From assembly GCF_900143215.1 (NCBI RefSeq), contig NZ_FRDM01000001.1, positions 124,001 through 188,000 on the forward strand: a stretch of 64,000 bases of DNA, read 5' to 3'. Under the pieces are notes generated by a model. It saw only the letters and a program-made list of their open reading frames with translations. It did no database searches and was not told where the DNA came from. Numbering within the stretch: position 1 is the stretch's first letter; each line of letters starts with the position of its first letter. Both the position numbers and the translations under genes were made by a program. This stretch comes from Geodermatophilus obscurus. GTDB lineage: Bacteria; Actinomycetota; Actinomycetes; Mycobacteriales; Geodermatophilaceae. Shown here piece after piece: positions 1,075 through 61,739 of the stretch.

Positions 1075-1155
1075 GCGGACAGGGGCGGGAGCCCGGCAAC
1101 GAGCGCCGGCGAGCGAGGAGCGCAGCCTCCCGCGGGAGCGAACGGGATCGCTGGG

Positions 1156-31993: not shown

Positions 31994-32020
31994 CCGACGG
32001 GGAGGGCAGGGGGGCCCTGC

Positions 32021-32548
32021 TCAGCCGTGGTCGAGGAGGAGCAGGCTGTAGGCGGCGAGGCTCGGCCCGTCGGTGAACCGGCCGTCGCGGACCATCGACC
32101 GGAGCTCGGCCTCGCTGACGAAGGCCGACCGCATGTCGGCCTCGCTCGCCTCCCGCGCGGTCGGCCCCTGGCTCAGGTCGGTGGCCAGCCAGACGTCGAA
32201 CTCCTGCGTGGACAGCCCCGGCGCGAGGTCCAGGTGCCCGAGGTGGCGCAGCGAACCGGCGCGCAGCCCGGTCTCCTCGGCCAGCTCCGCGCGGGCGAGG
32301 TCCTCGGCCGAGCCGCCCGGCCCCGCCGTCCAGGTGCCCTGCGGGAACTCCCAGGCCCGCCGCCCGACCGGGTACCGGTACTGCTCGACCAGCCAGAAGC
32401 CGTCACGCTCGTACGGCAGCACGAGCGCGAAGTGCGGCTTCTCCACCACGCCGTAGATGCCGGGGCTGCCGTCGGCGCGCTCGACCTCGTCCTCCCGCAC
32501 CCGGATCCACGGGTTGCGGTAGACCTCCCTGCTGCCCGTCGTCCGCAC
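32021..32548 (-). CDS. NUDIX hydrolase (ADP-ribose pyrophosphatase-like)
   Basis: 175 residues from a GTG at 32546-32548, the last start before the divergent SGNH gene. The Nudix box runs through GGSAEDLARAELAEETGL; the Arg of the canonical REUxEE is Ala, as in a number of ADP-sugar hydrolases. The preceding YRYPVGRRAWEFPQGT and following APGLSTQEFDVWLATDL fit the ADP-ribose pyrophosphatase/UDP-sugar branch. Cytoplasmic, Mg-dependent cleavage of nucleoside-diphosphate-linked molecules is expected. Confidence 0.88.
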   Translation of the reverse strand: MRTTGSREVYRNPWIRVREDEVERADGSPGIYGVVEKPHFALVLPYERDGFWLVEQYRYPVGRRAWEFPQGTWTAGPGGSAEDLARAELAEETGLRAGSLRHLGHLDLAPGLSTQEFDVWLATDLSQGPTAREASEADMRSAFVSEAELRSMVRDGRFTDGPSLAAYSLLLLDHG

Positions 32549-36877: not shown

Positions 36878-37027
36878 GCCGGCGCTGCCATCCGGCGGCT
36901 CCAGCCGGCATGCCGGACCCGGCTCCGGACACCCCGGCTCGGTGCGTCGCGGCCCGGACGCCGCGCGGAACGGGGGTGTGGCCGGGCTCGGGTGAGATCC
37001 CGGCCACACCCCCGTTCAGGCCGCTGT

Positions 37028-38065
37028 TCAGGCCGCCGGGTCGGCCGGCGCGGTCGCCGGCTTCGGGAACAGCCGGCGCAGCACGTCCGAGAGCGTGATG
37101 ACGCCGATGACCGCGCCGGCGTCGGTGACGACGGCGAGGTGGTTGCGCGTCTCGCGCATCGCCTTGAGCGCGGCGTGCACGCTGGTGTCGGCCGCGAGCG
37201 CGAACACCGGCCGAGCGAACGCCGCCGCCGCCGCCGACCCGGGTGCGGTGAGGGTGTCGCGGACGTGCACCACGCCGGTGATCTCCTCGCCGTCGGACGC
37301 GCCCAGCAGGATCCGCAGGTGCCCCGAGGCCCGGGTGAGCTCCCGGACCTCGCCGACCGTCGCACCCGAGCGCACGCCGGTCGGCTGGGAGGCCGGCCCG
37401 ACCAGCTCCCGGACGGTGAGGCGCTCGAGCTCGAGGGCGCCGGAGATCTGCGCCGAGAAGCTCGCGTCCAGGGCGCCGACGTTGGCCGAGTGCTCCACCA
37501 GGTGGCGCAGCGTGTCGGGGCTGTGGCCGACGGCGAGCTCGTCGAGGGGCTGGACGCCGACCCTGCGGACGAGGCGGTTGGCTGCGGCGTTCAGGACCCG
37601 CAGCAGCGGCCGGAACACCGCCATGAACACCCGCATCGGTGCTGCGAGCAGCGTGGCCGAGCGCTCCGGATGGGCGATCGCCCACGACTTCGGCGCCATC
37701 TCGCCGACCACCAGGTGGATGAACGTCACGACCAGCAGCGCGAGGACGAAGCCGGCGACGTCGGCGGCGACCAGCGGCAGGCCCCAGGTCTCGAACAGCG
37801 GGGTGAGCCAGTGGTGCACCGCCGGTTTGCTGATGGCCCCCAGGGCCAGGGTGGCCGCGGTGATGCCCAGCTGCGAGCCGGCCAGCAGCAGCGTGAGCTC
37901 CGAGGAGTTGCGCAACGCGGCCCGGGCCGAACGGCTGGTGGGCGCCGCCTCCTCCAGCCGGTGCCGCTTGGCGGCCAGCGCGGCGAACTCCACCGCGACG
38001 AAGAACGCGGACAGGGCGACGATGGCCACGGTCGCGGCGATGACCACCCACGGGTCGTCGCTCAT
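37028..38065 (-). CDS. CNNM/CorC-family membrane protein with CBS pair
   Basis: 345 residues from ATG 38065. The DUF21/CNNM transmembrane domain covers the first 175 residues (SAFFVAVEFAALAAKRHRLE, LAGSQLGITAATLALGAISK, LVVGEMAPKSWAI). A CBS pair spans about 205-335 (VRELVGPASQPTGVRSGATV, NHLAVVTDAGAVIGVITLSD). No CorC_HlyC C-terminal domain, unlike its partner. The family contains magnesium/cobalt transport-linked and hemolysin-annotated proteins. It overlaps the upstream paralogue by four bases (ATGA) and probably works with it as a heteromer. Confidence 0.9.
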   Translation of the reverse strand: MSDDPWVVIAATVAIVALSAFFVAVEFAALAAKRHRLEEAAPTSRSARAALRNSSELTLLLAGSQLGITAATLALGAISKPAVHHWLTPLFETWGLPLVAADVAGFVLALLVVTFIHLVVGEMAPKSWAIAHPERSATLLAAPMRVFMAVFRPLLRVLNAAANRLVRRVGVQPLDELAVGHSPDTLRHLVEHSANVGALDASFSAQISGALELERLTVRELVGPASQPTGVRSGATVGEVRELTRASGHLRILLGASDGEEITGVVHVRDTLTAPGSAAAAAFARPVFALAADTSVHAALKAMRETRNHLAVVTDAGAVIGVITLSDVLRRLFPKPATAPADPAA

Positions 38066-39895: not shown

Positions 39896-39968
39896 CGCGC
39901 CCGGCAGGGATCGAACCTGCGACCAAGTGCTTAGAAGGCACCTGCTCTATCCGCTGAGCTACGGGCGC
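39896..39968 (-). tRNA. tRNA-Arg (TCT anticodon)
   Basis: Minus-strand cloverleaf: acceptor GCGCCCG pairs with CGGGCGC, D-arm AGCTCAGCGGATAGAGC, anticodon loop CTTCTAA giving TCT (reads AGA/AGG), T-arm GCAGGTTCGATCCCTGC, discriminator G73. CCA is not encoded (CCC follows). Confidence 0.96.
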
Positions 39969-43837: not shown

Positions 43838-45508
<1,671 letters not shown>

Positions 45509-45572
45509 GGGAGGACCCCGCTGCCCCCACCCCTCGCACGCTCGGGTCGGGGCCCTGCAGCGGGGCCGTTCC
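45509..45572 (+). repeat. palindromic intergenic element, reference copy
   Basis: Runs from GGAGGACCCCGCTGC to GCAGCGGGGCCGTTCC, with an inner CCCCACCC...GGTCGGGG stem and a CTCGCACGCTCG loop. Outer stem CCCCGCTGC/GCAGCGGGG is perfect. It starts directly after the ettA TGA and probably terminates transcription. Confidence 0.75.
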
Positions 45573-45673
45573 AGCACGCCGCCGACGGCCGGACGGAGCG
45601 TTCGCTCCGGCCGGCCGTCGTGGTGGGCGGGGTGTCCCGGGGTCGGCCGGATGGATGCGGCAGGGTGTCGGTC

Positions 45674-46090
45674 GTGAGGCACACCGTGCAGGTCCCCATG
45701 CGCTGGTCGGACATGGACGCCTACGGCCACGTCAACAACGTCGTCTTCCTGACGTACTTCGAGATGGCCCGCGTCGACTTGTTCTTCGACCGGGCCTCGC
45801 TGGAGGAGCAGACCGGCCTGCGGCGGGGGACCGTCGTCGCGGCCCACGACGTCCGGTACAAGCTGCCGGTGGTCTACTCCCGCGACCTCCTCGACGTGCA
45901 GATCTGGGTCTCCGGCATCCGGGCCGCCGCCTTCACCTGCCACTACGAGCTCTTCGACCACGGACGGCAGGCGGTCACCGGCAGCACTCTGCTGGTGCCG
46001 TTCGACTTCGGCATCGACCGCCCCCGCCGGCTCACCCCGGCGGAGAAGGCGTTCCTCGCCCGCTACGCCGACGAGCAGCCCGCGGACTGA
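45674..46090 (+). CDS. acyl-CoA thioesterase (4HBT hot-dog fold)
   Basis: 138 residues from GTG 45674; GTG 45665 is an alternative. Motif RWSDMDAYGHVNNVVFLTYF carries the 4HBT active-site Asp and the GHVNN helix start. VVAAHDVRYKLPVVYSRDLL, then CHYELFDHGRQAVTGSTLLV, complete the hot-dog strands. It hydrolyses acyl-CoA thioesters of unknown chain length in the cytoplasm, probably as a tetramer. It is convergent with the MBL gene, with 10 nt between the stops. Confidence 0.92.
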   Translation: MRHTVQVPMRWSDMDAYGHVNNVVFLTYFEMARVDLFFDRASLEEQTGLRRGTVVAAHDVRYKLPVVYSRDLLDVQIWVSGIRAAAFTCHYELFDHGRQAVTGSTLLVPFDFGIDRPRRLTPAEKAFLARYADEQPAD

Positions 46091-46100
46091 GCCAGATCCC

Positions 46101-46850
46101 TCACGCGCCGCCGGGAGCGACCGGACCGTGGAGGCGTGCCCCCTCGGTGGCCAGCCGCTGGTCGTACGCGTCGCCGAGGTCGGCCAGGGCCTGCGAGCAG
46201 TCCCCGGTGAACGCAGGGCCGTGCATCAACCCGAGGGTCGCCGGCCGCAGGTCGGCCAGCGCCCGGATGGTCGGCCCCGTCGCCGGTGTCAGGCAGGTCG
46301 CCCGGAACAGGTCCTCCGCCTGCAGCGCCGGGCCGGTGATCTCCTGCTCGGTGATGGCCGGGCCCGCGCCCACGGCGGTGAACAGATCACCGCACAGGAG
46401 CGTGCCCGTCGTCTCTTCGTACACCAGCCCGGCGTCCCAGCCGTGCGGGACGTGCGGCGTCTCGATGCGCCGGATCCTACGCCCGCCCAGGTCGAGCACC
46501 TCGCCGTCCTGGAGCGGGCGGGGCGGCCGGTCAGCCAGGTCGGCGACGGAGACCGCGCACCCGAGGGCGCCGTGCGCCACCTCGGCCCGCGGTGCAGCCG
46601 CCAGCCACAGGTTCATGGCGCCGCACTCGTCCGCCTCCACGTGGCCGAACGTGATCCAGCGCAGCTCTGGCACAGGGACGATGCGCGCGACCGCCGCTGA
46701 CACCACGGGGAACAACGCCCGGGGGCCGCTGTGGAACAGCAGGGGCTCGTCAGCGGCGACGAGGAACTGGTTGAAGACGATGTCCGCATCGCTGACGTAG
46801 GTCGACAGCCGGTAGACGTCCGGAGCGATCTCGGTGACCTGAGTCTCCAT
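46101..46850 (-). CDS. metallo-beta-lactamase-fold diiron protein (flavodiiron/ODP type)
   Basis: 249 residues. The diiron motif of the oxygen-binding ODP branch is present as GHVEADECGAMN (HxExDE, about residues 68-76). A later TPHVPHGWDAGLVYEETTGT, the bridging Asp in LLCGDLFTAVG and the final His in LMHGPAFTGD complete it. There is no C-terminal flavodoxin domain, so reductant must come from a separate partner. Family members reduce O2 or NO or sense them. The start ATG 46850 has AGGAG just upstream. A truncated globin lies 5 kb away, another gas-binding protein. Confidence 0.82.
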   Translation of the reverse strand: METQVTEIAPDVYRLSTYVSDADIVFNQFLVAADEPLLFHSGPRALFPVVSAAVARIVPVPELRWITFGHVEADECGAMNLWLAAAPRAEVAHGALGCAVSVADLADRPPRPLQDGEVLDLGGRRIRRIETPHVPHGWDAGLVYEETTGTLLCGDLFTAVGAGPAITEQEITGPALQAEDLFRATCLTPATGPTIRALADLRPATLGLMHGPAFTGDCSQALADLGDAYDQRLATEGARLHGPVAPGGA

Positions 46851-46940
46851 GGAGGACTCCTCGAGGACGATGTGAGGCCGGACAGTGTCCTCCTGCGCGA
46901 GCCGACCGGACCACAGCCACGCGTCCCGCCGTCCTCACTG

Positions 46941-47381
46941 TCAGCGGACCGGCGCGCCGTGCACCACGCCGCTGCCGGCGTGCACCCAGTCCCGCGGCGG
47001 CGCGGTCTCCACGACCCGCTTGCCCAGCGGGAACAGACCCACCGCGGCCAGCTTGAACGAGGCGATGCCGAACGGGATGCCGATGATCGTCAGGCAGAAG
47101 CCGATGCCCGCGACGACGTGGATCAGCGCCAGCCACCACCCGGCCACGAGGAACCACACGAGGTTGCCCACGGCCGAGGCCACCCCGGCGTCGGGAGCGC
47201 GCACCGTCGTCCGGCCGAAGGGCCAGACGACGAAGCCGGCCAGGCGGAAGGCGGCGATCCCGAAGGGGATGGTGACGACCAGCAGGCAGGCGATCAGCCC
47301 GGCCAGGGCGTAGGCGAGGGCGAGCAGCCAGCCCTGCAGGACCAGCCACACCAGGTTCAGCAACGTGCGAAGAGCGTCCAC
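46941..47381 (-). CDS. YccF-domain inner membrane protein
   Basis: 146 residues with four hydrophobic helices in two homologous halves. Each ends with the YccF motif: VVTIPFGIAAFRLAGFVVWPFGR in the first half (quoted in part: TIPFGIAAFRLAGF) and IIGIPFGIASFKLAAVGLFP in the second. DUF307/YccF proteins are small membrane proteins of unknown function, sometimes linked to acid or membrane stress. It stands alone between the MBL and MOSC genes. Confidence 0.9.
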   Translation of the reverse strand: MDALRTLLNLVWLVLQGWLLALAYALAGLIACLLVVTIPFGIAAFRLAGFVVWPFGRTTVRAPDAGVASAVGNLVWFLVAGWWLALIHVVAGIGFCLTIIGIPFGIASFKLAAVGLFPLGKRVVETAPPRDWVHAGSGVVHGAPVR

Positions 47382-47469
47382 ACCCGACTCACGGCCGGCA
47401 GCGGCCGCCGGTTCCCCCGACGGGCGGGTTCACAGCGGTTCGCCAGGGGATCCTCAGGGACTCCCGGGG

Positions 47470-48006
47470 TCAGCCGCCGACGATCCGCGGCACCGGGCGG
47501 TCAGCACCGGCGGGCGCACCCCGCCGCGCCGCCTCCTCCTCGGACACCGGCCGCACGACCGCGCCCTCCGCGATCAGGGCCGAGGCGAAGACCGCCGCGT
47601 TGATGCCGCCGCGGTGCACCATCGCCTTCACCAGCCGGGCGCCGGTCAGCCGCTCCAGGTGCGTGCACGGCGGACAGCGCTTGACCCCGAACAGCAGCGC
47701 CTCGCCGACGGCGAACCAGCGGCCCACCAGCGACGGCAGGTCGACGCCGGCAGTCACCAGGTTCCGGCGGGTGTCGCCCGGGGTCAGCGGCACGCCGGCG
47801 TCCGCGGCGACGGCGGCGACGTCCGCGGCGTCGATCAGCGTCAGCTGCTTCTCCAGGTCGGGGTACTGCGCCCACGTCCCGCCGCCCAGCGCGTAGCGGT
47901 CGCCCTGCAGCCCGCGCCCGGCCAGCAGCCGCGCCGAGGGCACCCGCCGCATCGGCGCGGCCGCCTCGGACGTCAGCCAGATCCCGGTCAGCACGCCGCC
48001 GTCCAT
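47470..48006 (-). CDS. MOSC-domain protein
   Basis: 178 residues, ATG 48006 with GAGGAGGG upstream, overlapping the ecfT stop by one base. The MOSC beta-barrel pattern includes RLLAGRGLQGDRYALGGGTW, QLTLIDAADVAAVAADAGVP, PGDTRRNLVTAGVDLPSLVG and the Cys-bearing LLFGVKRCPPCTHLERLTGA. Such proteins bind molybdenum cofactor sulfur or act as YiiM-like reductases of N-hydroxylated bases. Being last in the biotin transporter operon is unusual; whether it acts on a biotin-related sulfur chemistry is speculative. Confidence 0.88.
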   Translation of the reverse strand: MDGGVLTGIWLTSEAAAPMRRVPSARLLAGRGLQGDRYALGGGTWAQYPDLEKQLTLIDAADVAAVAADAGVPLTPGDTRRNLVTAGVDLPSLVGRWFAVGEALLFGVKRCPPCTHLERLTGARLVKAMVHRGGINAAVFASALIAEGAVVRPVSEEEAARRGAPAGADRPVPRIVGG

Positions 48007-48632
48007 CACGCCCTCCTCGGCCGGCGCGCCGGCACGTCGTCCGCGCCCCGCGCGTCCAGCGCCTCGCCGAGCGTGGCCGCCAGCTGCAGGACCTGGATCA
48101 GCAGCGGCACCAGCAGCCCCAGCCGCATCCCCGACGCCCCCCGGGCCGCCTGCGCCTCGCGGATCCGCGCGGCCCGCTCGGCCACCACCGGGATGAACCG
48201 CAGCGTCATCGCGACCATCAGGCCCACCCGTGCTGGCCGCACGCCGACCACCTCGAGCGGCCGCAGCAGCCACTCCACGACGGCCACCAGCGCGGTCACC
48301 CGGGTGGTCGCGGTGACCACGGCCGCGGCCAGCACCAGGGTGAGCAGTCGCAGCACCGCCACCGCCCCGGTCAGCGGGTCGGTGAGCAGCAGGTGGAAGA
48401 CGAACAGGCCGGTCAGCAGCAGCCACACCGGCCGCACCTGCGCCCACAGGACCCCGGCCGGCAGCCGGGCCACCAGCAGCCCGGCGGCCAGCACGCCGAT
48501 CAGCGCCGCGACGACCACCTCGATGCGGGCAACGGCGAACAGCCCGGTTCCGAGGGCCGCGAGCGCCGCCAGCTTCAACCCGGCCCGCGCGCGGTGCACG
48601 AGGCTGGTGCCCGGTCGGTACAGCGACAGCAT
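48006..48632 (-). CDS. bioN: ECF transporter transmembrane protein (BioN/EcfT type)
   Basis: 208 residues from ATG 48632, overlapping the ATPase TGA by one base. Opening [20 protein letters not shown], several hydrophobic helices, and the two ATPase-coupling Ala-Arg-Gly motifs in RIREAQAARGASGMRLG and ALDARGADDVP. It couples the ATPase to the BioY substrate subunit in the membrane. Gene order BioY-ATPase-T is that of a dedicated biotin transporter. Confidence 0.88.
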   Translation of the reverse strand: MLSLYRPGTSLVHRARAGLKLAALAALGTGLFAVARIEVVVAALIGVLAAGLLVARLPAGVLWAQVRPVWLLLTGLFVFHLLLTDPLTGAVAVLRLLTLVLAAAVVTATTRVTALVAVVEWLLRPLEVVGVRPARVGLMVAMTLRFIPVVAERAARIREAQAARGASGMRLGLLVPLLIQVLQLAATLGEALDARGADDVPARRPRRA

Positions 48633-49363
48633 CAGCCGCACCGGGCCACGTACCAGGGCACCGTCTCGGCCGGCGTCCCGTCGGCGGCCACCCGGCCGTC
48701 CTCGAAGACCAGCACCCGGTCGAACGCGGCGAGCAGATCGAGGTGGTGGGTGACCACGACGACGTCCTGCTCGAGCCCGTCGACGACCCGCGCGACCCGG
48801 CGGGTGTTGCCCAGGTCCAGCAGCGTCGTCGGCTCGTCGAAGACCACCCGCTGCGGCTCCATGACGAGCACGCCGGCGATCGCCAGCAGCTGCTTCTGCC
48901 CGCCGGACAGCAGGTGGGCGGGGTGGTCGCGGTGTCCGTCGAGCCCGTACTGGACCAGCACCTCGTCGACCCGCCGGGCGATCTCGTCGGCCGGCACGCC
49001 CTGGTTGGTCAGCCCGAACGCCACGTCCTCGGCGACCGTGGGGTGCACGATCTGCGCGTCGGGGTCCTGGAACACGAAGCCGACCCGCCGGCGGACCTCG
49101 CGGACCTGCGTGCGGGTGTCCAGCCCGTCGACCAGCACGGTGCCGGCGGTGGGCACCACCAGCCCGTTGAGCAGCCGGGCGAACGTGCTCTTGCCCGACC
49201 CGTTGGCCCCGATGACCCCGATCCGCGCCTCGGTCAGCGTCAGCGAGACGCCGGCCAGCACGGTGCGCTCGCCGTAGGCGTGGGTGACGTCGCGCAGTTC
49301 GACGGCGGTCCGGGGCAGAGGTGGCGCGGCTGCTGCCGTGGCGCCGCGCCGTCCCCACCGCAT
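48632..49363 (-). CDS. bioM: ECF transporter ATPase (BioM type)
   Basis: 243 residues from ATG 49363; a GTG at 49375 is possible. Walker [18 protein letters not shown]-loop [20 protein letters not shown], signature [16 protein letters not shown], Walker [16 protein letters not shown] and the switch His in [11 protein letters not shown]. All are typical of CbiO/BioM ATPases. It energises biotin import with BioN and BioY encoded on either side, and lies 18 nt downstream of the bioY stop. Confidence 0.9.
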
Positions 49364-49381
49364 GGCAGCGACCACCCGGTC

Positions 49382-49948
49382 TCAGCCCGCGGTCGCGCGC
49401 CGGCTGGGCAGCTCGATCACCGGGTAGGCGCGACGCACCGCCACGGCGACCACCGAGGCCGCCACGGCCTTGACGACGTCCCCGGGGATGAACGCCAGCG
49501 AGCCGATGGCCGAGGCCGACAGCGGGATGTCGGCGTAGAGGCTGGTGAACGGGATGCCGATCGCGTAGATCACCGCGATGCCGCCGACCAGGTTGGCGAC
49601 CAGCGCCCAGGCGAGGTTGTACCGCCGCCAGAACCGCTCGGTCAGCCAGCCGACGACGAACGCGGCGATCGGCCAGCTGTAGAGGTAGCCGGCCGTCGGT
49701 CCGACGAAGACGCCCAGGCCGCCGGCACCGCTGGCCAGCAGGGGTGCCCCCATCGCCACGACGGCCAGGAAGAGCAGCAGCGCCAGCCCGCCGCGCCTGG
49801 CGCCGAGCACCGAGCCGGCCAGCATCACGCCGAGCGTCTGGGCGGTGATGGGCACCGGGATGCCCGGCACCGGGACCGGCGGGATCTGGCCGAGCACGGC
49901 GACGATGGCCGCGAAGAGCGCGACGTAGGCGAGGTCCCTGGTCTTCAC
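49382..49948 (-). CDS. bioY: biotin transporter substrate-binding subunit BioY
   Basis: 188 residues from GTG 49948 with GGAGGAG upstream. Six hydrophobic helices. The signature regions include IPPVPVPGIPVPITAQTLGV, MLAGSVLGARRGGLALLLFL and GPTAGYLYSWPIAAFVVGWL, followed by IPFTSLYADIPLSAS. BioY is the high-affinity biotin S-component. First gene of bioY-bioM-bioN-MOSC. Biotin is required here by AccA1. No BirA/BioR box could be recognised upstream. Confidence 0.95.
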   Translation of the reverse strand: MKTRDLAYVALFAAIVAVLGQIPPVPVPGIPVPITAQTLGVMLAGSVLGARRGGLALLLFLAVVAMGAPLLASGAGGLGVFVGPTAGYLYSWPIAAFVVGWLTERFWRRYNLAWALVANLVGGIAVIYAIGIPFTSLYADIPLSASAIGSLAFIPGDVVKAVAASVVAVAVRRAYPVIELPSRRATAG

Positions 49949-50037
49949 GGCGATCTCCTCCCGGGGTGCGCGGAACACACCACGCAGCTCCCGGCGGAAG
50001 GTACCCGAGGACCGGCGCGTTGCCGCCGCCCGCCCGC

Positions 50038-51630
50038 TCAGGCGCGGAGCCACACCGCCGTGTCCGCCGGGACGCTCCCGCCGCTGACGTCGGCGCTGGC
50101 CAGCAGGACCTCGCCCTCGGGCAGCGCGACGTCGCCGCCCGAGACGTTGAGCAGGCAGACCAGCCCGCCCGGGCGACGGAACGCCAGACACCCCTCCGGC
50201 GCGGGCAGCCACGCCAGCGAGTCGCCGGCGAAGGCGGGCGAGGTCCGCCGCAGCGCGAGCGCCGCTCGGTACAGCGACAGCACCGAACGGGGGTCGCCGG
50301 CCTGTGCCTCGGCGGTCAGCGCTCCCCAGCCCTCCGGCATCGGCAGCCAGGTCCCGGTGCGCGAGGAGAAGCCGTAGGACGGGGTCGTGCCCGACCACGG
50401 CACCGGGATGCGGCAGGCGTCGCGCCCGCGCTCGGTGCGTCCGGACCGCTCCCAGATCGGGTCCTGCAGCACCTCGTCGGGCAGGTCGACGTCCGGCATG
50501 CCGAGCTCGTCGCCGTTGTAGAGGTAGGCCGCCCCGGGCAGCGCCAGCTGCAGCAGCGCCGCGGCCCGGGCCCGCCGGGTGCCCTGCGCGCCGCCGCCGT
50601 AGCGGGTGACGTGCCGCGGGCGGTCGTGGTTGGACAGCACCCAGCAGGCCGGCGCCGGCGTGCCGGCCACGGTGGCCAGCGAGTGGACGACGGCGTCGCG
50701 CAGCTCGTCGACGTCCCAGTCGGCGGTCAGCAGCTTGAAGTTGAAGGCCAGCTGCAGCTCGTCGGGACGCAGGTACTGCGCCAACCGGTCGTCGTCGGAG
50801 ACCCAGACCTCGCCGACGGCCATGGCCCCGGGGTACCGGTCGAGGACGGCGCGGACCCGCCGGTGCACGTCGTGCACCCCGTCGTCGTCGAACCGGTGGT
50901 CGCCGGGGCCGTGGTCGTCGAGCAGGCCGGTGTCCTCCATCGGCTCCATGTCCGGCAGGCCCGCCGGCTTGGCCATGCCGTGCGCGACGTCGATGCGGAA
51001 GCCGTCGACCCCGCGGTCGAGCCAGAACCGCATCGTGGTCTCGAGGTCGGCGAGCACCTCGGGGTCGGTGAAGTCCAGGTCGGGCTGCTCCGGCGCGAAG
51101 ACGTGCAGGTACCACTGCCCGTCGTCGACCCGGGTCCAGGCCGGCCCGCCGAAGACCGAGGGCCAGTTGTTGGGCGGCTCGGCGCCGTCGGGGCCGCGGC
51201 CGTTCCGGAACAGGTAACGGGCCCGCTCCGGCGATCCGGGGCCGGCGTCCAGTGCGGCCTGGAACCAGGCGTGCCGGTCGGAGGTGTGGTTGGGCACCAG
51301 GTCGACGGTCACCCGGATGCCGAGCGCGTGCGCCTCGGCCAGGAGCGCGTCGAACTCGGCGAGGTCGCCGAAGACCGGCTCGACGTCGCGCGGGTCGGCG
51401 ACGTCGTAGCCGTGGTCGGCCATGGGCGAGGGGTAGAAGGGCGTGATCCACAGCGCGTCGATGCCGAGCGCGGCCAGGTGCGGCAGGCGGGCGCGGATGC
51501 CGGCCAGATCGCCGACGCCGTCACCGTTCCCGTCGGCGAAGCTGCGGATGTAGACCTGGTAGAAGACCGCGTCGCGCCACCAGTCGACGTCGGCGCGGCG
51601 GGCGGCGGGCAGGGTCGTGTCCGGGCTCAC
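50038..51630 (-). CDS. glycoside hydrolase family 13 (alpha-glucosidase type)
   Basis: 530 residues, GTG start. Family 13 regions are clear: VYQVYIRSFADGNGDGVGDL, region I VTVDLVPNHTSD, region II GVDGFRIDVAHGM with the nucleophile Asp, region III AMAVGEVWVSDD with the acid/base Glu, and region IV CWVLSNHDRPR. The QVYIRSF and GDGVGDL features and the overall length fit oligo-1,6-/alpha-glucosidases of the AglA type. No signal peptide, so a cytoplasmic enzyme acting on imported malto- or isomalto-oligosaccharides. It is separate from the bioY operon by 89 bp. Confidence 0.93.
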   Translation of the reverse strand: MSPDTTLPAARRADVDWWRDAVFYQVYIRSFADGNGDGVGDLAGIRARLPHLAALGIDALWITPFYPSPMADHGYDVADPRDVEPVFGDLAEFDALLAEAHALGIRVTVDLVPNHTSDRHAWFQAALDAGPGSPERARYLFRNGRGPDGAEPPNNWPSVFGGPAWTRVDDGQWYLHVFAPEQPDLDFTDPEVLADLETTMRFWLDRGVDGFRIDVAHGMAKPAGLPDMEPMEDTGLLDDHGPGDHRFDDDGVHDVHRRVRAVLDRYPGAMAVGEVWVSDDDRLAQYLRPDELQLAFNFKLLTADWDVDELRDAVVHSLATVAGTPAPACWVLSNHDRPRHVTRYGGGAQGTRRARAAALLQLALPGAAYLYNGDELGMPDVDLPDEVLQDPIWERSGRTERGRDACRIPVPWSGTTPSYGFSSRTGTWLPMPEGWGALTAEAQAGDPRSVLSLYRAALALRRTSPAFAGDSLAWLPAPEGCLAFRRPGGLVCLLNVSGGDVALPEGEVLLASADVSGGSVPADTAVWLRA

Positions 51631-51705
51631 CGGTCTCCTCGAGATGTCGACGGCCCCTCGCAGGAACCCGCCTCCAGTGTGCGATCGGCGGGGGCCGCGG
51701 GTCCG

Positions 51706-52095
51706 TCAGCGGTTCTGCATGCTGTGCGCGGCCATCTCCAGGTACCCCCACAGCGTCGCGTCCTGCTCGGGGGTCAGCTCCAGGGAGTCGACGGCGTCGC
51801 GCATGTGGCGCAGCCACGCGTCGCGCTCGGCGGGGCCGATGGCGAAGGGCGCGTGGCGCATGCGCAGCCGGGGGTGGCCGCGCGCGTCGGAGTAGGTGGT
51901 CGGACCGCCCCAGTACTGCTCCAGGAACGTGCGCAGCCGGGTCTCGGCGCCCGCCCAGTCGTCCTGGGGGTACAGCGGCGCGAGCACCGGGTCGGCGCGC
52001 ACGCCGGCGTAGAAGCGGGCCACGAGCCGGGAGAAGGTGGGCGCGCCGCCGACCTCCTCGTAGAAGGTCCGGGCCGACGGCAGGGATCGGCTCAT
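51706..52095 (-). CDS. glbO: group II truncated hemoglobin
   Basis: 129 residues. TrHbII markers: SFYEEVGG-like opening ([20 protein letters not shown]), then [40 protein letters not shown], the proximal His in [15 protein letters not shown], and the G-helix Trp of [11 protein letters not shown] heme protein for O2/peroxide or NO chemistry in the cytoplasm. Its ATG overlaps the MFS stop in an ATGA, placing it last in an mscS-MFS-glbO operon. Confidence 0.95.
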
Positions 52096-53408
52096 GTCCT
52101 CGATCGTCCCGCAGCGGCCGGGGCCGCTGCCACGTGACCCTGGGTACGCACGTAGCCGACGAGCGGCGGGAGGACGGCCAGCAGCCCCACCCCGCCGATC
52201 AGGGCCACCACGCCGCCGGGCGCGAGCCCCTCGGCCGCGGCGCCGGCGGCGAGCACGCCGATGCCCTGGACGCCGTAGAGCCCGCTGACCGCGACCCCGA
52301 AGGCGCGGCCCCGGTAGGCCGGCGGCACGGCCTGCACGAAGGCGACGTTGAGCGGGATCGTCCAGGCCAGACCCAGCCCGGCGACGAACATGAGCGCGAC
52401 GACGGCCGCGTAGGCGCCCTGGCCGGGTGCCCCCCACACGGTGACCAGCCCGGCCACCAGGATCGGGAGCAGCGACAGGACGACGAGGTGCGGCACCAGC
52501 TGCTCGCGGCGCTGCTGGGTGAGCCCGCGGGCGACGAGCAGCCCGCCCACGGTGACCCCGGCGGGGTTGGCCGCGAGCAGCACGCCGATCTGGGTCGCGC
52601 CCTGGCCGAGCTGCTCGACCAGCGGTGCGGCGATGCCCTCCGGGGCGTTGGCGAACAGGGTGCCCACCCAGGTGACGGCGATGATCGCCCGCAGCCGGGG
52701 TGTCCGGCCGATCAGCCGCAGCCCCTCGGCGGCGTCCCGCCACATCGAGCGGGGTCCCTCGGCCTCGCCGCCGTCGTCCGGGGCCGGGCGGCGCTGCAGC
52801 CGGGCCCACAGCCAGACGGCGGAGACGGCGAAGGTGGCCGCGTCGAGCAGCAGCGCCGCCGACGGGTCCAGCACGGCGACCAGCGCGCCGCCCAGCACGA
52901 ACCCGAGGACCTGGGCCACCTGCGAGCCGACGTTGGTCAGGGACGTCGCCAGCGCGTACCCCTCGCCGTCGAGGACGTCGGCCATGAGCGCCGACCGGGC
53001 GGACTCGAACGGCGGCCCGCACACCGCCACGACGAACAGCAGGACCAGCAGCACCGGCAGCGGCGTCCCGGGGACGGCCATGAGGGCGACCAGCAGGGCG
53101 CGCGCGGTGTCGCTGGCGATGAGCACCCGGTGCCGCGGGAGCCGGTCGGCGAGGGTGGACAGCAGCGGCCCGCCCAGCAGCCACGGCAGGTAGCTGATCG
53201 CGAAGGTCACCGCGGACAGCAGCGGCGAGTCGGTGCGCTGGTAGACCAGCACGGTCAGCGCGACGCGGGCCAGCTCGTCGCCGATGGTCGACAGCAGGTA
53301 GCTGCCGAACAGCGGCCGGAACTCCCGGACGGCGAACAGCCCGCGGAAGGTCGCCGGGCGGGGGGCTGCGCCGGCCGGGCTCCCGCCGGCCGGCGCGCTG
53401 CCGCTCAG
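52092..53408 (-). CDS. MFS transporter
   Basis: 438 residues if translation starts at CTG 53408; no ATG, GTG or TTG occurs between the mscS stop and the first helix. The CTG overlaps the mscS TGA as CTGA, like an ATGA coupling, with GGCGGGGG upstream. Twelve helices; the opening [20 protein letters not shown], the loop [37 protein letters not shown] and [20 protein letters not shown] fit enterobactin-exporter-like/tetracycline-type MFS proteins. The substrate is unknown. It ends in an ATGA overlap with glbO. Confidence 0.85.
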
Positions 53409-54415
53409 CGGGCCCCCGCCGGGGCGCCGGCCGCGGACAGCAGCGGCAGGGGCGTGCGGATGCCCTCGGCGACGAAGCGCTCCTTGAGCCGCATGCGCAG
53501 CTCGCGGCCGACCCGCCACTGGTCGGCGTTGGTGGTGCGGACCTGCAGGCGCATGAACACACCCTCCGAGGTGATCTGCTCGACGCCGAGGGACTCCGGC
53601 TCGGACAGCAGCACCCCGGCCCACTCGTCCTCGACGTACAGCGCGTCGGCCACCTCCTGCATCACCGCCCGGCAGCGCTCGAGGTCGGTGTCGTGGGCCA
53701 CCGGCATGTCGATGACCACCTGGGCGTAACCCTGGCTCTTGTTGCCGACCCGCAGGATCTCGCCGTTGCGGGCGTACCAAACCACGCCGTTGACGTCGCG
53801 CACGCGGGTGATCCGCAGGCCGACCGCCTCCACCGTGCCGCTGGCCTCGCCGAGGTCGACGACGTCACCGACGCCGTACTGGTCCTCGAGGATGATCCCG
53901 ATCCCGGCGATGAAGTCCTTGACCAGATTCTGCGCGCCGAAGCCCAGCGCGACACCCACCACGCCCGCGCTGGCCAGGATCGGCGCCAGGTTGATGCCGA
54001 GCTCGCCGAGCACCAGCACCACGGCGATGCCCAGCACCACGATCGAGGCGCAGCTGCGCAGCACCGACCCGATGGCCTCGGCCCGCTGGGTGCGCCGGGC
54101 GGCGACCTGCTCCGCGCCGTCCCCCACGGCGGCCGCGCGCAGCCGGCGGGCCCGCAGGATCGAGGGGACCGGGCTGCCGGCGGTGGAGTCGGTCAGCCGG
54201 CGGATCGCCCGGTGCGCCAGGTGCCGCACCAGGACGGCGACGACGACGATCAGCAGGATCCGCGCCGGTGTGGCGATCAGCGCCTCGGCGTTCTCCGCCA
54301 GCCACGCGGTCCCCCACCAGTCGTAGACCTGCTGGCAGAGCCAGTAGTCGGCGCAGTCGGGCATGGAGCCGGTCCCGCCGTCTGCGGCGGCGATCACGGA
54401 CGGTGAAGCAGTCAT
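53405..54415 (-). CDS. mscS: small-conductance mechanosensitive channel (MscS)
   Basis: 336 residues from ATG 54415. N-terminal external segment and helices, then the pore-lining TM3 region [40 protein letters not shown], and the beta domain [40 protein letters not shown] cytoplasmic cage domain follows. It opens under membrane tension to release solutes. The length is close to YggB-like MscS. First gene of the overlapping operon with the MFS and glbO genes. Confidence 0.92.
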
Positions 54416-54487
54416 CACGCCGATACTCTCAGGTGCGGGAAGGCAACCCCAGGTGCATGCCGCATGGCGCGGCACACGAACCAGGGA

Positions 54488-56563
<2,076 letters not shown>

Positions 56564-56777
56564 GCGCCCACGGTAGTGAGGACGGGACGGGTGTCCCCGG
56601 ACCGTCCGGGACTTCCCGGGAGCGCCGGAGCGCGGTCCCAGGTCAGAATGGGAGCGCCCACGGGTCGCACTGCACCCGGCGCGCGGCCCCGGGCGCCGGA
56701 GGTGCCCCGTGCCGCGTACCGCGTCCGGGTCGTCCGCAGGCCATCCAGGTCCGCGGCGCGACCACCACTCCCATCTG

Positions 56778-57314
56778 ATGACACCTGTCCCGGCGCGGTC
56801 GACCGCCGCCGCGACGCTGCTGCTCAACGCCACCTACGAGCCGCTGTGCGTGGTCTCCAGCCGGCGCGCCATCGTGCTCGTGCTCGCCGACAAGGCGGTC
56901 TCGGTGCACAGCGCGCCCGAGGAGGTGCACGCCGAGACGGTGGTCCTGCCCGTTCCGGTGGTGGTGCGCCTGACCCGTTACGTGCGGGTGCCCTACCCGG
57001 CGCAGGTCCCGCTCTCCCGGCGGGCGGTGTTCCACCGCGACGCCTCGACCTGCGTCTACTGCGGCAGCTCGGCCACGAGCATCGACCACGTCGTCCCGCG
57101 CAGCCGCGGCGGCACGCACACCTGGGACAACGTCGTCGCGGCCTGCCGGCGGTGCAACCACACCAAGGCCGACCGGTCGCTGGCCGAGCTCGGGTGGAAG
57201 CTGCCGCACCCGCCGCGTACCCCCAGCGGCGCGGCCTGGCGGCTGCTCGGCGCGCGCACCGTCGACCCGCGCTGGCGGGAGTGGCTGGGCATGCCGGAGA
57301 GCGTGTCGGCCTGA
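56778..57314 (+). CDS. HNH endonuclease family protein
   Basis: 178 residues from ATG 56778. The N-terminal [20 protein letters not shown], and then [60 protein letters not shown], give a zinc-stabilised HNH fold (two CxxC) with the catalytic His-Asn-His. This compact HNH family, with the LNATYEPL opening, is common and single-copy in actinobacteria. The biological role (repair or restriction-like) is not defined. A palindromic element begins one base after its stop. Confidence 0.92.
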
Positions 57315-57376
57315 TGGAAGGACCCTCCTGCCCCCCACCACTCGCAGGCTCGCGGCGGGCCCCTGCCGTGGGGCCG
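57315..57376 (+). repeat. palindromic intergenic element, stop-anchored copy
   Basis: TGGAAGGACCCTCCTGCC to GCCGTGGGGCC, with inner CCCCCCACCACTCGCAGGCT. It fills almost the entire 67-bp gap between the HNH stop and the next ATG, so it may attenuate transcription into the next gene. Confidence 0.7.
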
Positions 57377-57381
57377 CACCC

Positions 57382-58257
57382 ATGACGTCGCCGGCGACGG
57401 CGCGGCGGATGTGGGCGCTGGGCGAGCCCTACCACGCGCTCACCTACTTCGCCGACGAGTGCCGGACGGCCGCCGAGGCGACCGGGCTGCGTGGCTTCTG
57501 GCGCGGCTACTTCGCCATGCGGGCCGCGCCCATGGGCCCGGTCGGAGCCGAGGTGGTGACGGCCACCTTCTACAACTTCGCGCCCGCGTTCGTGGCCGGC
57601 CGCGTACCGGACGTGTGGCAGGTGGTCGATCCCGCGTCGGTGCTGGCCGCGCGGCTGGCCGGGGTGGCCGCCGCGGTGCGCCGGACGCTGGGGGAGGAGT
57701 GGCCGGCCTCCGCCGCGGCGGCGGAGGCCGCCGAGCTGCTCACCGCGGCAGCGGCCGCGGTGGACGCCCCCGGCCGGCCGCTCGCGGCGGCGAACGCCGG
57801 GCTGCCGGTGCCTGCGGAGCCGCACCTGGCCGTCTGGCAGTCGCTGACCACGCTGCGGGAGCACCGCGGCGACGGGCACAACGCCGCGCTGCTGCAGCGG
57901 GGCATCTCCGGGGTCGGCGCACACGTGCTGGCCGCCGCGGCCGGCCGGACGGCCCGGGAGTGGCTGCTCCGCGCCCGCGGGTGGGACGACGACGCGTGGA
58001 CGACCGCCGCCGAGGAGCTCGCCGCCCGCGGCTGGCTGGCCGGCGAGGAGCTCACCGCGGAGGGCGCCGCGATCGTCGCCGCGGTGGAGGCCGACACCGA
58101 CCGGCTGGCGCTGGCACCGTGGCAGGCACTGGGTGACCGGCGGTGCGACCGGCTGGCGGAGCTGCTCGCGCCGGTGCGCCGCGCCGTCGTCGCGGCGGGC
58201 GCCTGGCCGGAGGTCAACCCGATCGGCGTTCCGGACCCGGACCGTGGCGCACCTTGA
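57382..58257 (+). CDS. SCO6745-family protein
   Basis: 291 residues from ATG 57382. Opening [20 protein letters not shown], then [40 protein letters not shown] and the late [40 protein letters not shown]. This combination is the SCO6745 family of actinobacteria: helical, with a winged-helix-like C-terminal part related to MarR-type folds. No catalytic motif or DNA-binding role is established. The preceding element leaves only 5 nt to the start codon; no ribosome site is distinct. Confidence 0.75.
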
Positions 58258-58479
58258 GTTCGCGCGGACGGCGCGCCCCGTTCGGGGAGGTGCCCGGATG
58301 ACCCCGATCGTCCGCACCCGGCGCGGTCCGGTGCCCGGGGACGGGACGCCGGGGGACTGAGGGCGAGAGGGTTGGCGACATCACCGACTCCTCGCCCGTT
58401 GGCCCGTCCGAACCTGCCAGTCGGTGCGGCTCACGTCCTCCGCCGACGGGCAAGAGCTGCCGACGGCTCGGTCGTCCCG
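58258..58479. other. intergenic region upstream of the surface-protein operon
   Basis: With the repeats at 58480-58508 and the leader to 58615, this makes a 358-bp gene-free gap. Open frames here have no domains or ribosome sites. Confidence 0.4.
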
Positions 58480-58508
58480 GGTCACACTGTGGTCACACCA
58501 GGTCACAC
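58480..58508. promoter_or_regulatory. three phased GGTCACAC repeats
   Basis: Direct repeats at 58480-58487, 58491-58498 and 58501-58508, spaced 11 and 10 bp, so on one helical face. GTCACA direct repeats resemble the binding motif described for the actinobacterial response regulator MtrA. A further GGTCACGTCAC lies at about 58549-58560. They sit 108 bp before the surface-protein start. Confidence 0.5.
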
Positions 58509-58615
58509 ATGACTCATGCCGCGTGTTCAGCACTCAGGCGAACTGACTGGTCACGTCACGTTCCCGCCGCAGCCAGCGCCGACGGGGTGCTGCGGTCGCC
58601 GGAAGGTGTCCTCTC

Positions 58616-59758
58616 ATGTCCAGCTCCACGCAGAACCGCCGGCGGCAGGTGCAGCGCCTCGCCCTCACCGGTGTCGGCTCCGCCGTCCTGCTCGTCGGGA
58701 TCGCCTCCACCGCGGGTGCCGCCCCTGGCGTCGTCATCCCCCTCGCGCCGACCGAGGTCGCGCTGTTCAACTACCCGATCGAGAAATACGACTGGGCGCC
58801 CATGGACCCGGTGAACGGCCCCGCGGGAGCCGCCGAGCCCATCATCGTCCAGTACGGCGAGTTGCTGACCGTGGACCTGGCCGACGAGCTCGACCCCATC
58901 AACGCCGTGGTCGAGCTGGAGTTCCCCGACGGTGCCGACCCCGACACCCTCCCGGACAAGACGTACTCCACGGACCCGAGCGCGACAGACCCGCTGGTCG
59001 TGGCCGTGGTCAACGGCAACGACCTGGAGATCACCCTGCCGCCGGACGACGGTGTGAACGGGCCGCAGGCCACCCTCCGCATCGCGCCCATCGAGCCCGA
59101 CGCCACCGTCCTCGGGCCGGAGTTCACCGTCGACCCGCTGCTGGAGTACGAGCTGGACCTCAGCGCCACGGCACCCACCGCGACCACCCTGTACCCCGAG
59201 CTGGTGGCGCTCGCCCAGGTGCCCTGCGCCCTGACCTCGACCACGCCGTGCCCGGTCGCGGTGACCGCCGGCACGACCTTCACCCTCGAGCTGACCGCGG
59301 ACTCGGCGCTGCGGGACCTCGACCTCACCGACCTCACCGGCATCGAGGTCGCGCTGCAGAGCACCGCCGACTCCGCCGCCGCCCCCGTGCTGCTCGCCGT
59401 CGAGGCGAGCGGTTCCACGGCGACGGTCACCCTGCCCGCCGAGCTGGCCGCCGGCTCCTACGCCCTCGTCCTCGGCCAGCCGATGACGTCGGGGCTCTCC
59501 ATCGTGGTCGCGGAGCTGACCGTGTCGGCTCCGGCCGTTCCGCCGCCTGCGACGGAGACCGTGGCCCCGGCGCCCCAGGCTGTCGCGGTCAACGCCGGCC
59601 TGCGCTCCAACACCGGCGTCGAGGCAGTCGAGACCGGCTCCACCGGAACCGTCGCGGTCACCGCGGGTGCCGGGATGCTGGTCCTCGCGGGCGTGGGTGG
59701 CATCGCCGTCGCCCGCACCCGTCGTCGTCCGGCGGCCGAGGGCGGCACGTGCGCCTGA
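58616..59758 (+). CDS. secreted surface protein with sortase-type C-terminal signal
   Basis: 380 residues. A Sec signal peptide (RLALTGVGSAVLLVGIASTA, cleavage after GAA) is followed by an all-beta, Asp/Glu- and Thr-rich region with Ig-like strand periodicity and a Cys pair (VPCALTSTTPC). A Pro-rich linker (VPPPATETVAPAP) precedes the C-terminal sorting pattern: LRSNTGVEA, a hydrophobic helix (VAVTAGAGMLVLAGVGGIAV) and RTRRR. The motif is not a textbook LPXTG but has the same order. The adjacent overlapping sortase gene makes it the probable cognate substrate. Function unknown; likely cell-wall anchored. Confidence 0.75.
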   Translation: MSSSTQNRRRQVQRLALTGVGSAVLLVGIASTAGAAPGVVIPLAPTEVALFNYPIEKYDWAPMDPVNGPAGAAEPIIVQYGELLTVDLADELDPINAVVELEFPDGADPDTLPDKTYSTDPSATDPLVVAVVNGNDLEITLPPDDGVNGPQATLRIAPIEPDATVLGPEFTVDPLLEYELDLSATAPTATTLYPELVALAQVPCALTSTTPCPVAVTAGTTFTLELTADSALRDLDLTDLTGIEVALQSTADSAAAPVLLAVEASGSTATVTLPAELAAGSYALVLGQPMTSGLSIVVAELTVSAPAVPPPATETVAPAPQAVAVNAGLRSNTGVEAVETGSTGTVAVTAGAGMLVLAGVGGIAVARTRRRPAAEGGTCA

Positions 59759-60402
59759 CCCGGCCGAGCCGGCGCACCACCGCGGTCGCGGCGGTCGTCG
59801 CCCTCGGGTTCGCCGTCGGCCTGGCCGACGGCGGGCAGCCGGCCGCGGCCACCGGGTCCCCGGACCCGGTGGCCGCGGCCACCGCCCCGCCTGCCGTCGA
59901 GGAGGCGCAGCCCACGCTGCCGCCGGAAGGGGTCGCCCTGCCGACGCCCTCGTCCGACGTGCACGTGACCGTGGACGCGCTGGGCATGGACCTGCCGGTG
60001 CTGCCGCTGACCCCGCGCAACGGCACGATCAACCCGCCGACGCTCACCGCGGCCTACTGGATCCAGCCCTACGGCGACCCGGTCGGCGCGGCCGAGCAGG
60101 CGGACAACACGCTGTACCTCGCAGCGCACTCGACCGGCACCGGCGAGTACGGCTTCGACCCGCTGATGGAGTCCGACGGCGGCGGCAGCACCCTGGCGGC
60201 CGGCAACGTCATCGAGGTGAGCACCCCGCAGGGCACGGTCGACTACACCGTCGAGCGGACCCAGCGGTACGCCAAGGGCGAGCTGCCCGGGGTCACCGAG
60301 GTGTGGGAGTCCTCGCCCGGACGGCTGGTGCTCATCACCTGCTTCCAGCGCGGCAGCGGCCGGGCCTCGACCGAGAACCTCGTCGTCTTCGCCGAGTCCT
60401 GA
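59749..60402 (+). CDS. class F-type sortase
   Basis: 217 residues from GTG 59749, overlapping the surface-protein stop by 10 nt. An N-terminal anchor/signal helix (TTAVAAVVALGFAVGLADGG) is followed by a Pro-rich stalk and the sortase barrel. DNTLYLAAHSTGTGEYGFD carries the catalytic His, GRLVLITCFQRGSGRAS carries the catalytic Cys in LITC and the Arg. The compact length and the single N-terminal membrane segment fit actinobacterial class F enzymes. It would cleave at the Thr of the neighbour's signal and link it to peptidoglycan. Confidence 0.85.
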   Translation: MRLTRPSRRTTAVAAVVALGFAVGLADGGQPAAATGSPDPVAAATAPPAVEEAQPTLPPEGVALPTPSSDVHVTVDALGMDLPVLPLTPRNGTINPPTLTAAYWIQPYGDPVGAAEQADNTLYLAAHSTGTGEYGFDPLMESDGGGSTLAAGNVIEVSTPQGTVDYTVERTQRYAKGELPGVTEVWESSPGRLVLITCFQRGSGRASTENLVVFAES

Positions 60403-60418
60403 GCCGCAGCGACGTACG

Positions 60419-60482
60419 GGAACGGCCCCGCTGCAGGGCCCACGCCGAGCGGGCGAGGCGTGGGGGGCAGCGGGGTCCTTCC
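60419..60482 (-). repeat. palindromic intergenic element, minus-oriented stop-anchored copy
   Basis: On the minus strand it starts GGAAGGACCCCGCTGCCCC directly after the kynureninase stop and ends GCAGCGGGGCCGTTCC. Nearly the same sequence as the copy at 45509, 15 kb away. It also lies beyond the convergent sortase stop, so it can terminate both. Confidence 0.75.
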
Positions 60483-61739
60483 TCAGGTCACCCGGCTGCG
60501 CTCGGTGGGGTAGCCCTCGTGCGCCCCGCTCGCCAGCACCTCGCGGAAGCAGTCCATCGCGTCCCAGACGTCGACGAAGCGGGTGTAGAGCGGCGCCGGG
60601 CCGAGGCGCACCCGGTCCGGGGTCCGGAAGTCGGGGACCACGCCGCGGTCGACCAGCGCCTGGGTGAGCCGCCAGGCGTCGGGGGAGGCGAGGGTCACGT
60701 GCGAGCCGCGGCGCGCCGGGTCGCGGGGCGAGGCCAGCAACACGCCGTGCGGAGCCAGCCAGGCGTCGGCGAGGGCGACGACCAGGTCGCCGAGCGCCCG
60801 ACCCTTGGCCACCAGCCGGTCGATACCGGCCTCGGCCACCAGCCGGGCGCCGACCTCCACCGCCACCGTGGCGAGCACCGGTGGCGTCCCGACGGCGAAG
60901 CGCTCGATCCCCGGCGCCGGGTCGTACGCCGGGCCCATGGCGAACTGGTCGCGCTGGCCGAACCAACCCCAGATCGGCTGCCGCAGCTGCTCCTGCAGCT
61001 CGTGGCGCACGTAGAGGAAGGCCGGCGCGCCCGGCCCGCCGTTCAGGTACTTGTAGGTGCACCCGACGGCGAGGTCCGCGCCGTTCGCCGTGAGGTCGAC
61101 CGGCACCGCGCCGGCGGCGTGCGAGAGGTCCCACACCACCAGCGCCCCGGCCTCCCGGGCCACCGCCGTGACGGCGGCGACGTCGGCGAGCGCCCCGGAC
61201 CGGTAGGCGACCGCCGACAGGACGACGACGGCGACCCGGTCGTCCAGGGCCGCGGCCAGCACCGCCGGGTCCAGCCCCTCGTCGACGTCGGCCGGGACCT
61301 CGCGCACCGTCATCCCGCGGGCCTGCGCCACCCCGGCGACGACGTAGCGGTCGGTGGGGAAGTCGTCGGCGCAGCAGACCAGCACGTCGCGGCCGGGCCG
61401 GGCGTCGGCGGCGGCCACCAGCAGCTTGTAGAGGTCGACCGTCGTCGAGTCGGCCACCAGGACCTCGCCGGGCCGGGCACCGAGCACGCCCTCGGCGAGC
61501 AGGTCGCCCACCCGGGTGGCGGCGCCGATCCACGACGACCAGGAGCGCACCAGGCCCCGCGCCCACTCCTCCTCGACCACCCGCGCGAGCGCCGCGGGTG
61601 TCTCCACCGGCATCCGGCCCAGCGAGTTGCCGTCCAGGTAGAGCAGCCCGTCCTCCGCGGCGCCGGCGAACCGCACGCGGAAGCCGGCCAGCGGGTCGGC
61701 GGCGTCGAGGGCCTCGGCGGCGGCCCGGGTCAGGTCCAC
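60483..61739 (-). CDS. kynU: kynureninase
   Basis: 418 residues, GTG start. It splits kynurenine to anthranilate and alanine with PLP. Motifs: LYLDGNSLGRMPVETPAAL, WSSWIGAATRVGDLLAE, DSTTVDLYKLLVAAA, VVWDLSHAAGAVPVDLT, and the PLP Lys in GCTYKYLNGGPGAPAFLYV near residue 228. IWGWFGQRDQFAMGPAYDP is the substrate-site segment. Tryptophan dioxygenase is not in the window. Divergent from an amidase, with 33 bp between the starts. Soluble homodimer. Confidence 0.94.
   Translation of the reverse strand: MDLTRAAAEALDAADPLAGFRVRFAGAAEDGLLYLDGNSLGRMPVETPAALARVVEEEWARGLVRSWSSWIGAATRVGDLLAEGVLGARPGEVLVADSTTVDLYKLLVAAADARPGRDVLVCCADDFPTDRYVVAGVAQARGMTVREVPADVDEGLDPAVLAAALDDRVAVVVLSAVAYRSGALADVAAVTAVAREAGALVVWDLSHAAGAVPVDLTANGADLAVGCTYKYLNGGPGAPAFLYVRHELQEQLRQPIWGWFGQRDQFAMGPAYDPAPGIERFAVGTPPVLATVAVEVGARLVAEAGIDRLVAKGRALGDLVVALADAWLAPHGVLLASPRDPARRGSHVTLASPDAWRLTQALVDRGVVPDFRTPDRVRLGPAPLYTRFVDVWDAMDCFREVLASGAHEGYPTERSRVT

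Follow-up and report, generated by a model that had tools for sequence, protein, structure and literature searches.

The window analysed here is a stretch of 64,000 nt with a GC content of 75%, covering positions 124001 to 188000 of contig C48 in the 5.24-Mb genome of Geodermatophilus obscurus (G000). It holds a set of imperfect hairpins of about 60 nt, in two forms (A and B), most of which begin directly behind the stop codon of a protein-coding gene and are oriented with that gene. We scored these elements with a covariance model (R1) trained on 47 form A copies whose selection required both arms. The matches in the window, with one neighbouring hairpin, are as follows (positions counted from the first nucleotide of the window).

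45509–45567, plus strand: form A element, 0 nt past the TGA of ettA (43838–45508), 66.4 bits
45583–45620, no strand assigned: separate inverted repeat with 18-nt arms, 94% complementary, the probable ettA terminator
57316–57375, plus strand: form A element, 1 nt past the TGA of an HNH endonuclease gene (56778–57314), 67.7 bits
60424–60482, minus strand: form A element, 0 nt past the TGA of kynU (60483–61739, minus strand), 75.3 bits
33402–33459, plus strand: form B element, 0 nt past the TGA of a GDSL/SGNH hydrolase gene (32607–33401), 40.3 bits
25948–26029, plus strand: degenerate composite, a form A left arm with a form B copy behind it at 25972–26029, 32.4 bits, E = 3.6e-4
31939–32020, minus strand: degenerate composite with an inner copy at 31939–31993, 32.2 bits, E = 3.9e-4
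51652–51708, minus strand: weak copy that opens with the TGA belonging to the upstream gene (51706–52095, minus strand), 28.4 bits, E = 0.0027

The initial annotation of this DNA had placed four elements of about 60 nt at 45509, 57315, 60419 and 33402, each starting at the stop of the gene it follows. All four are present, at 45509 (plus), 57316 (plus), 60419–60482 (minus, starting at 60482) and 33402 (plus), and they adjoin the stops of the ettA, HNH, kynU and SGNH genes at 0, 1, 0 and 0 nt, oriented with the gene; when a GTTCC tail is counted, the ettA element reaches 45572 and the kynU element 60419. The gene we take to be ettA owes its name to that annotation, and Pfam indicates an ABC-F-like protein. 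The four belong to one family, a single model scoring them all; the copy at 33402 is form B and not the GCTGC form. Among the degenerate copies that had been proposed, those at 25948 and 31939 are real and nested, each preceded by another copy's left arm, the outer left arm of the second directly abutting the stop of a minus-strand gene (32021–32548), whereas the one at 6444 has no model match (E ≤ 1) and by eye consists of two left arms face to face.

The hairpin has an unpaired 5′ foot, AGAA (consensus AGAAGGACC in the 47 copies), and a GC-rich outer stem carrying an extra A, inside which follow an asymmetric internal loop (CC versus nCCCT), an inner stem and a conserved loop, CTCGCnnGCTCG. 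Little or no variation among the 47 copies is seen, for instance, in AGGACC of the left side, CCCTG of the right side and the greater part of the loop CTCGC..GCTCG. The structure is supported by pairing, by two-sided changes and by covariation: in the alignment of the 47 copies 91.9% of the cells are paired, 10 pairs have changed on both sides (4.6 in shuffles), and the covariation score is 0.135, against 0.038 ± 0.006 when shuffled and at most 0.027 with the partner slid. Selecting copies by both arms helps to raise the proportion of paired cells, so that the changes on both sides of a pair are stronger evidence of structure. One outer-stem pair is CG in 59, GC in 40 and TA in 5 of the 111 distinct copies of G000, which were aligned by the model and are hence biased toward its structure. 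Judging from the sequences, such compensatory changes would favour some function of the paired form.

Form B shares the foot and loop of form A and has the stem GTCCTCC/GGACGGG; it is found alone, as at 33402, nested in form A in several species, and inverted within form A. At several loci (L034, L035, L074, L032, L070 and L007) the right half of form A and its tail are repeated in tandem with a unit of about 46 bp. In a metagenome-assembled genome of Modestobacter, repeated CTTTCGGCGCCGAAAG palindromes lie right behind the element foot at a stop (L040, near 3580).

The seat of the element was measured against coding stops predicted by a purpose-written codon-model gene finder; its starts are rough, but only the stops enter the counts, and the controls were put through an identical test. 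Sample 1 comprises model matches with E < 1e-3 in C48, chosen as the contig of the window, and in C12, a contig of the nearest relative (G015, a separate species with about 92% identity to G000), chosen for synteny; the sample spans about 0.8 Mb in all. After removal of two overlapping rows (L019) from 28 in C48 and one partial row from 29 in C12, it holds 26 and 28 copies; the weak copy at 51652–51708 was excluded from these stop-distance counts. Altogether 29 of the 54 copies (12/26 in C48, 17/28 in G015) have a coding stop on their own strand at −3 to +3 nt from their start (exactly 0 in 22), compared with 3 of 648 shifted-position controls, and the 3′ end of the element lies at a convergent stop in 1/54. 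As C12 was picked for its synteny with C48, inherited sites are partly counted twice in these figures. By a motif rule, 17 of the 25 copies that are not flush lie in or beside another copy and 8 are solitary. Sample 2, consisting of 70 of the 74 top-scoring among 152 matches in G000, has a coding stop at most 60 nt upstream in 45/70, at −3 to +1 in 41/70 and at 0 in 26/70. In sample 3, the 73 scorable of 74 matches in 45 named loci, 44/73 copies are flush against 7/880 controls, and the count for 3′ ends is 6/74. The loci of this last sample were picked by a 16-mer starting with AG, which could bias them toward T|AG stops; despite this possible bias TGA is the stop in 32 of the 44 flush copies.

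Some copies do form the stop themselves (T|AG). An element-supplied stop was rejected as a general rule: across the genus, presence or absence of the element leaves the C-termini of ettA and kynU unchanged. At ndk, C-terminal length also differs in several genomes that lack the element.

A survey of 522 gene ends found the core pattern, with one mismatch allowed and at most 12 nt from the stop, at 43 (about 8%, a few of which are by eye not elements), so that the element may influence transcript 3′ ends across a large part of the family's transcriptome. The 479 other gene ends provide a measure of ordinary hairpins, 88 of them having one within 120 nt against 28 after shuffling. These start at 0–3 nt in 7/88 cases (3 at 0 and 3 at 1 nt) and at 10–19 nt in 25/88, and per nucleotide they are as dense at positions 0 and 1 as at 10–14. 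Ordinary hairpins can thus abut stops, but far less regularly than the element. The covariance model search and the tabulated stop distances and orientations therefore bear out what had been proposed from the four copies: a common sequence family, enriched flush behind stops, with a conservation of position and orientation beyond that of independent terminators.

These figures bear on whether we are dealing with a terminator family, whose hairpin ends the sense transcript and whose copies were spread or kept for termination. Like intrinsic terminators, the element is a GC-rich hairpin past genes, with a pairing maintained by compensatory change. The gap to the next gene is at least 100 nt at 30 of 38 flush gene ends and below 25 nt at 1/38, although the element's own length partly forces these values; ordinary hairpins, as just described, abut stops too, and so do unrelated palindromes at kynU. 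Against this, ordinary hairpins are widely spread where more than half of the elements of sample 1 sit within 3 nt, and the seat, mostly at 0–3 nt, sets the element apart from intrinsic terminators. Further, a separate hairpin of the GGCCGGCCGGAGC type stays downstream of ettA, whether the element is present or not, in 19/19 same-genus genomes (by eye), and further hairpins are not depleted at flush ends (7/29 versus 52/297 elsewhere, although the windows differ and the element was skipped at flush ends). In the copies read, the sense strand carries no U-run, its tails being GTTCC or variable and GC-rich (by eye), and the letters of the loop and internal loop are conserved beyond a terminator's needs, within one dispersed family. 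We consider a terminator family unlikely, and the earlier suggestion that a dispersed element was recruited as a terminator is hardly borne out in its second half.

Reading the bottom strand instead, so that antisense 3′ ends would fall at the elements, places the U-rich tail UCCUUCU behind the hairpin; AGGA, the complement of part of it, is invariant in the 47 copies. The bottom strand also folds better in 114/117 copies (mean −37.4 versus −31.2 kcal/mol), and two inner-stem positions are A.C on top, and so G.U on the bottom, in 64 and 29 of 111 copies. The stability of the bottom strand is, however, attributed mostly to these two positions, which may be founder inheritance, while at other positions the two kinds of wobble pair are about equally frequent (22 versus 18, 26 versus 14), so that the wobble argument for this strand is only a hint. 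Nor are convergent genes enriched at flush sites (14/38 versus 158/461 others), and we hold the antisense reading to be quite improbable.

Beyond the window, a 16-mer search of G000 with up to two mismatches hit 70 places, against 7 for a reversed control pattern, and at least 152 model matches were obtained at E ≤ 0.1 (150 first-look candidates scored); extrapolated from the density in C48, the genome would hold about 300 copies. Among named genomes the left-arm 16-mer occurs in at least 114 stretches, and 46 of the 80 matches listed are Geodermatophilaceae by title (Blastococcus, Geodermatophilus, Modestobacter, Goekera and unnamed relatives), most with the whole element. By eye, the whole element occurs in 0/34 of the non-Geodermatophilaceae among the matches listed, two or three of which have an unrelated hairpin at the 16-mer. 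The model matches 101/112 genomes of the family and 9/12 genera; copy numbers in these genomes are lower bounds, most of them reaching the maximum of 48 scored candidates, and some genomes of otherwise rich genera hold 0–5 copies (G031, G059, G047, G037 and G087). Of 121 genomes drawn from the order, the model matches 17: 15 belong to the family, and two, with 1–2 copies each, come from other families, to which at most 106 of the drawn genomes belong. With spread by phages in mind, the set viral_contigs was searched and gave one exact 19-mer match.

In DNA of 75% GC, where inverted repeats abound (80 pairs in the window), chance hairpins could be suspected of convergent similarity. Sequence identity across genera, near absence outside the family, covariation and the position controls leave this suspicion next to no credence. 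Covariation, stop-position controls, the comparison with ordinary hairpins and the near restriction to the family together rule out independent terminators or chance hairpins as the whole explanation. What had been called a dispersed element is indeed one sequence family, present family-wide in many copies and in nested and inverted composites.

Comparison of orthologous sites shows how this population changes. Inspected by eye in 19 same-genus genomes including G000, the ettA stop is followed by form A in nine (G000, G015, G003, G016, G008, G014, G006, G007 and G002), by an odd form in G013, by an inverted form B in G011 and G001, and by remnants or collapsed hairpins in G017, G012, G009 and G004; none is recognisable in G018, G005 and G010. 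The state of the kynU site likewise varies among congeners: in G011 both convergent stops touch, and in several others the spacer holds unrelated palindromes, some abutting the stop. A stem type GTGC/GCAC shared among kynU sites argues that inheritance plays a part too. Other palindromes, with arms GGAAGCAAT...ATTGCTTCC or similar, lie near stops of kynU, its neighbour and ndk in some congeners (L220, L362, L308 and L366).

Between G000 and G015, the site at 33402, which lies between two convergent stops, measures 100 bp in the former and 1 bp in the latter; the HNH-gene element is missing at the G015 orthologue; form A stands opposite form B at several orthologous stops; and about seven flush sites of G015 have no element in G000 (by eye). 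Many sites are old, and their content is turning over. At ndk the element stands at the stop in 6/25 genomes, and on a tree of 19 genomes its four carriers are dispersed among sister tips without it, which by our count takes four gains or about ten losses; support is good for the pairs G015/G000 and G013/G008 and poor for the pairs of G001 and G005. At window positions 1076–1151, a 76-bp stretch past a stop in G000 is missing in G015, and GAGGAGCG-type repeats common to it and to three other G000/G015 breaks are perhaps another dispersed repeat.

With the sequence family, the hairpin, its position and orientation, the composites and the presence/absence differences established, we read the element as a non-autonomous palindromic repeat family of Geodermatophilaceae, similar to repetitive extragenic palindromic (REP) sequences, once mobile and now resting at stops, and give this reading a probability of slightly under 0.6. 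Its mobile past is suggested by the nested and inverted forms, the near-empty sites and the patchy presence at ndk. Copies would have spread singly or as composites, the 5′ foot coming to rest against the stop codon of a gene, or supplying it, through a presumed preference of that end for gene ends. Once seated, they would have been kept as hairpins via compensatory change, lost by collapse, or switched from one form to the other. A retained hairpin might act on the transcript as REPs near stops do in Escherichia coli, where they are reported to stall ribosomes, or might protect its 3′ end, and by this analogy an effect at the stop at transcript or translation level is most likely for retained copies.

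Several observations weigh against such a history. By eye, 16 of the 17 flush sites of G000 that have a G015 orthologue also hold an element or remnant there, so that inheritance accounts for much of the pattern and the C48 and C12 parts of sample 1 are not independent; 33402 is a further site, empty in G015, that the pattern behind this count missed. No target-site duplication was visible by eye at near-empty G000/G015 sites, in a pair only about 92% identical, and no clean single insertion was found between very close strains, the genomes compared being different species. The Y1 transposase domain (PF01797) occurs in 0/112 family genomes, by a search whose control found it in 5/14 known genomes, and in 0/1 when G000 was searched. 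A crude search for a longer, transposase-bearing parent, such as the insertion sequence from which a miniature inverted-repeat transposable element (MITE) would derive, with unpaired arms 180–5000 bp apart in C48, C12 of G015 and 46 named loci, returned four pairings, none convincing, and no transposase with matching ends was found there. Moreover, the proposed effect on the transcript is drawn from analogy alone.

The Y1 result bears most directly on the variant in which the element belongs to a system of REPs and REP-associated tyrosine transposases (RAYTs) and is mobilised by the Y1 enzyme. The unpaired foot and hairpin, the many copies, the composites and the nearness to stops are what one would look for in such a system; against it stand the missing domain and a consensus that lacks the GTAG foot, and we rate this variant as very improbable. 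RAYT mobilisation in the genomes searched is ruled out by the lack of Y1, though an ancestor may have had a RAYT that was later lost. Mobilisation by a Y2 transposase of the IS91 rolling-circle type was also rejected: PF04986 was found in 1/112 family genomes (G078; the control found it in 0/14, so this match alone validates the search), and that genome has no element.

A mobile palindrome with stop codons as its target had also been ventured in the initial annotation. Its mobile part fits the near-empty sites and the patchy presence, whereas targeting would be a further step, and no mobilising enzyme was found in the searches above. Copies may have been delivered to stops or only kept there by selection. 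Delivery directed at the stop codon itself, with gene ends as the target and some machinery besides the Y1/Y2 HUH transposases at work, is possible though doubtful; it may involve, for example, a process linked to the transcript or to the termination of translation. The seat is in any case exact enough to ask whether the repeat finds stops or the hairpin must abut a stop to be retained.

Among known systems, the attC sites of integrons are also imperfect hairpins directly behind a gene, with end motifs GTTRRRY/RYYYAAC. These motifs are not evident in the element by eye (no search was made), and the genes that the element follows, ettA, kynU and ndk among them, are ordinary chromosomal ones. 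Closer is the likeness to REP/RAYT systems as outlined in PMC3733652, which extends to a short hairpin that bears an unpaired foot on one side, high copy number, an intergenic location near gene 3′ ends, and composites. The element differs in its 60 nt with an asymmetric internal loop (REPs have 20–40 bp), in its foot AGAA instead of GTAG or CGTC, in the lack of a Y1 transposase in the 112 genomes, and in a tighter, one-sided seat, mostly at 0–3 nt. In E. coli, 260/496 REPs lie within 15 nt of stops and stall ribosomes according to an earlier study cited in PMC12306157, whose own count is 446/4,072; they resemble the element as hairpins close behind a stop, but their sequence is unrelated and the element abuts the stop itself, its function being suggested by analogy. 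Mycobacterial interspersed repetitive units (MIRUs), which as presented in PMC12548453 insert at start codons and carry a coupled small open reading frame, are likewise actinobacterial interspersed repeats at a coding boundary; the element differs in being a hairpin behind the stop.

We found no description of the element family in the literature searched, in which subscription journals were thinly covered, and no Rfam match. Rfam 15 at gathering level matched two tRNAs alone in the window and no element, and at E ≤ 5 in six loci it gave four matches, 0/4 on an element. Since GTAG REP termini often supply the stop TAG and CGTC REPs without a dedicated transposase are on record (both in PMC3733652), and since the element family is undescribed and has no Rfam model, we therefore regard the element as a new REP-like family that is not part of the RAYT system. 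A REP-like family without a REP transposase is a case that the same survey left open for CGTC REPs (PMC3733652).

The two tRNA genes lie on the minus strand at 6564–6636 and 39896–39968. The longest two inverted repeats of the window, at 36949–37036 (41-nt arms) and 59830–59891 (30-nt arms), are by eye unrelated to the element.

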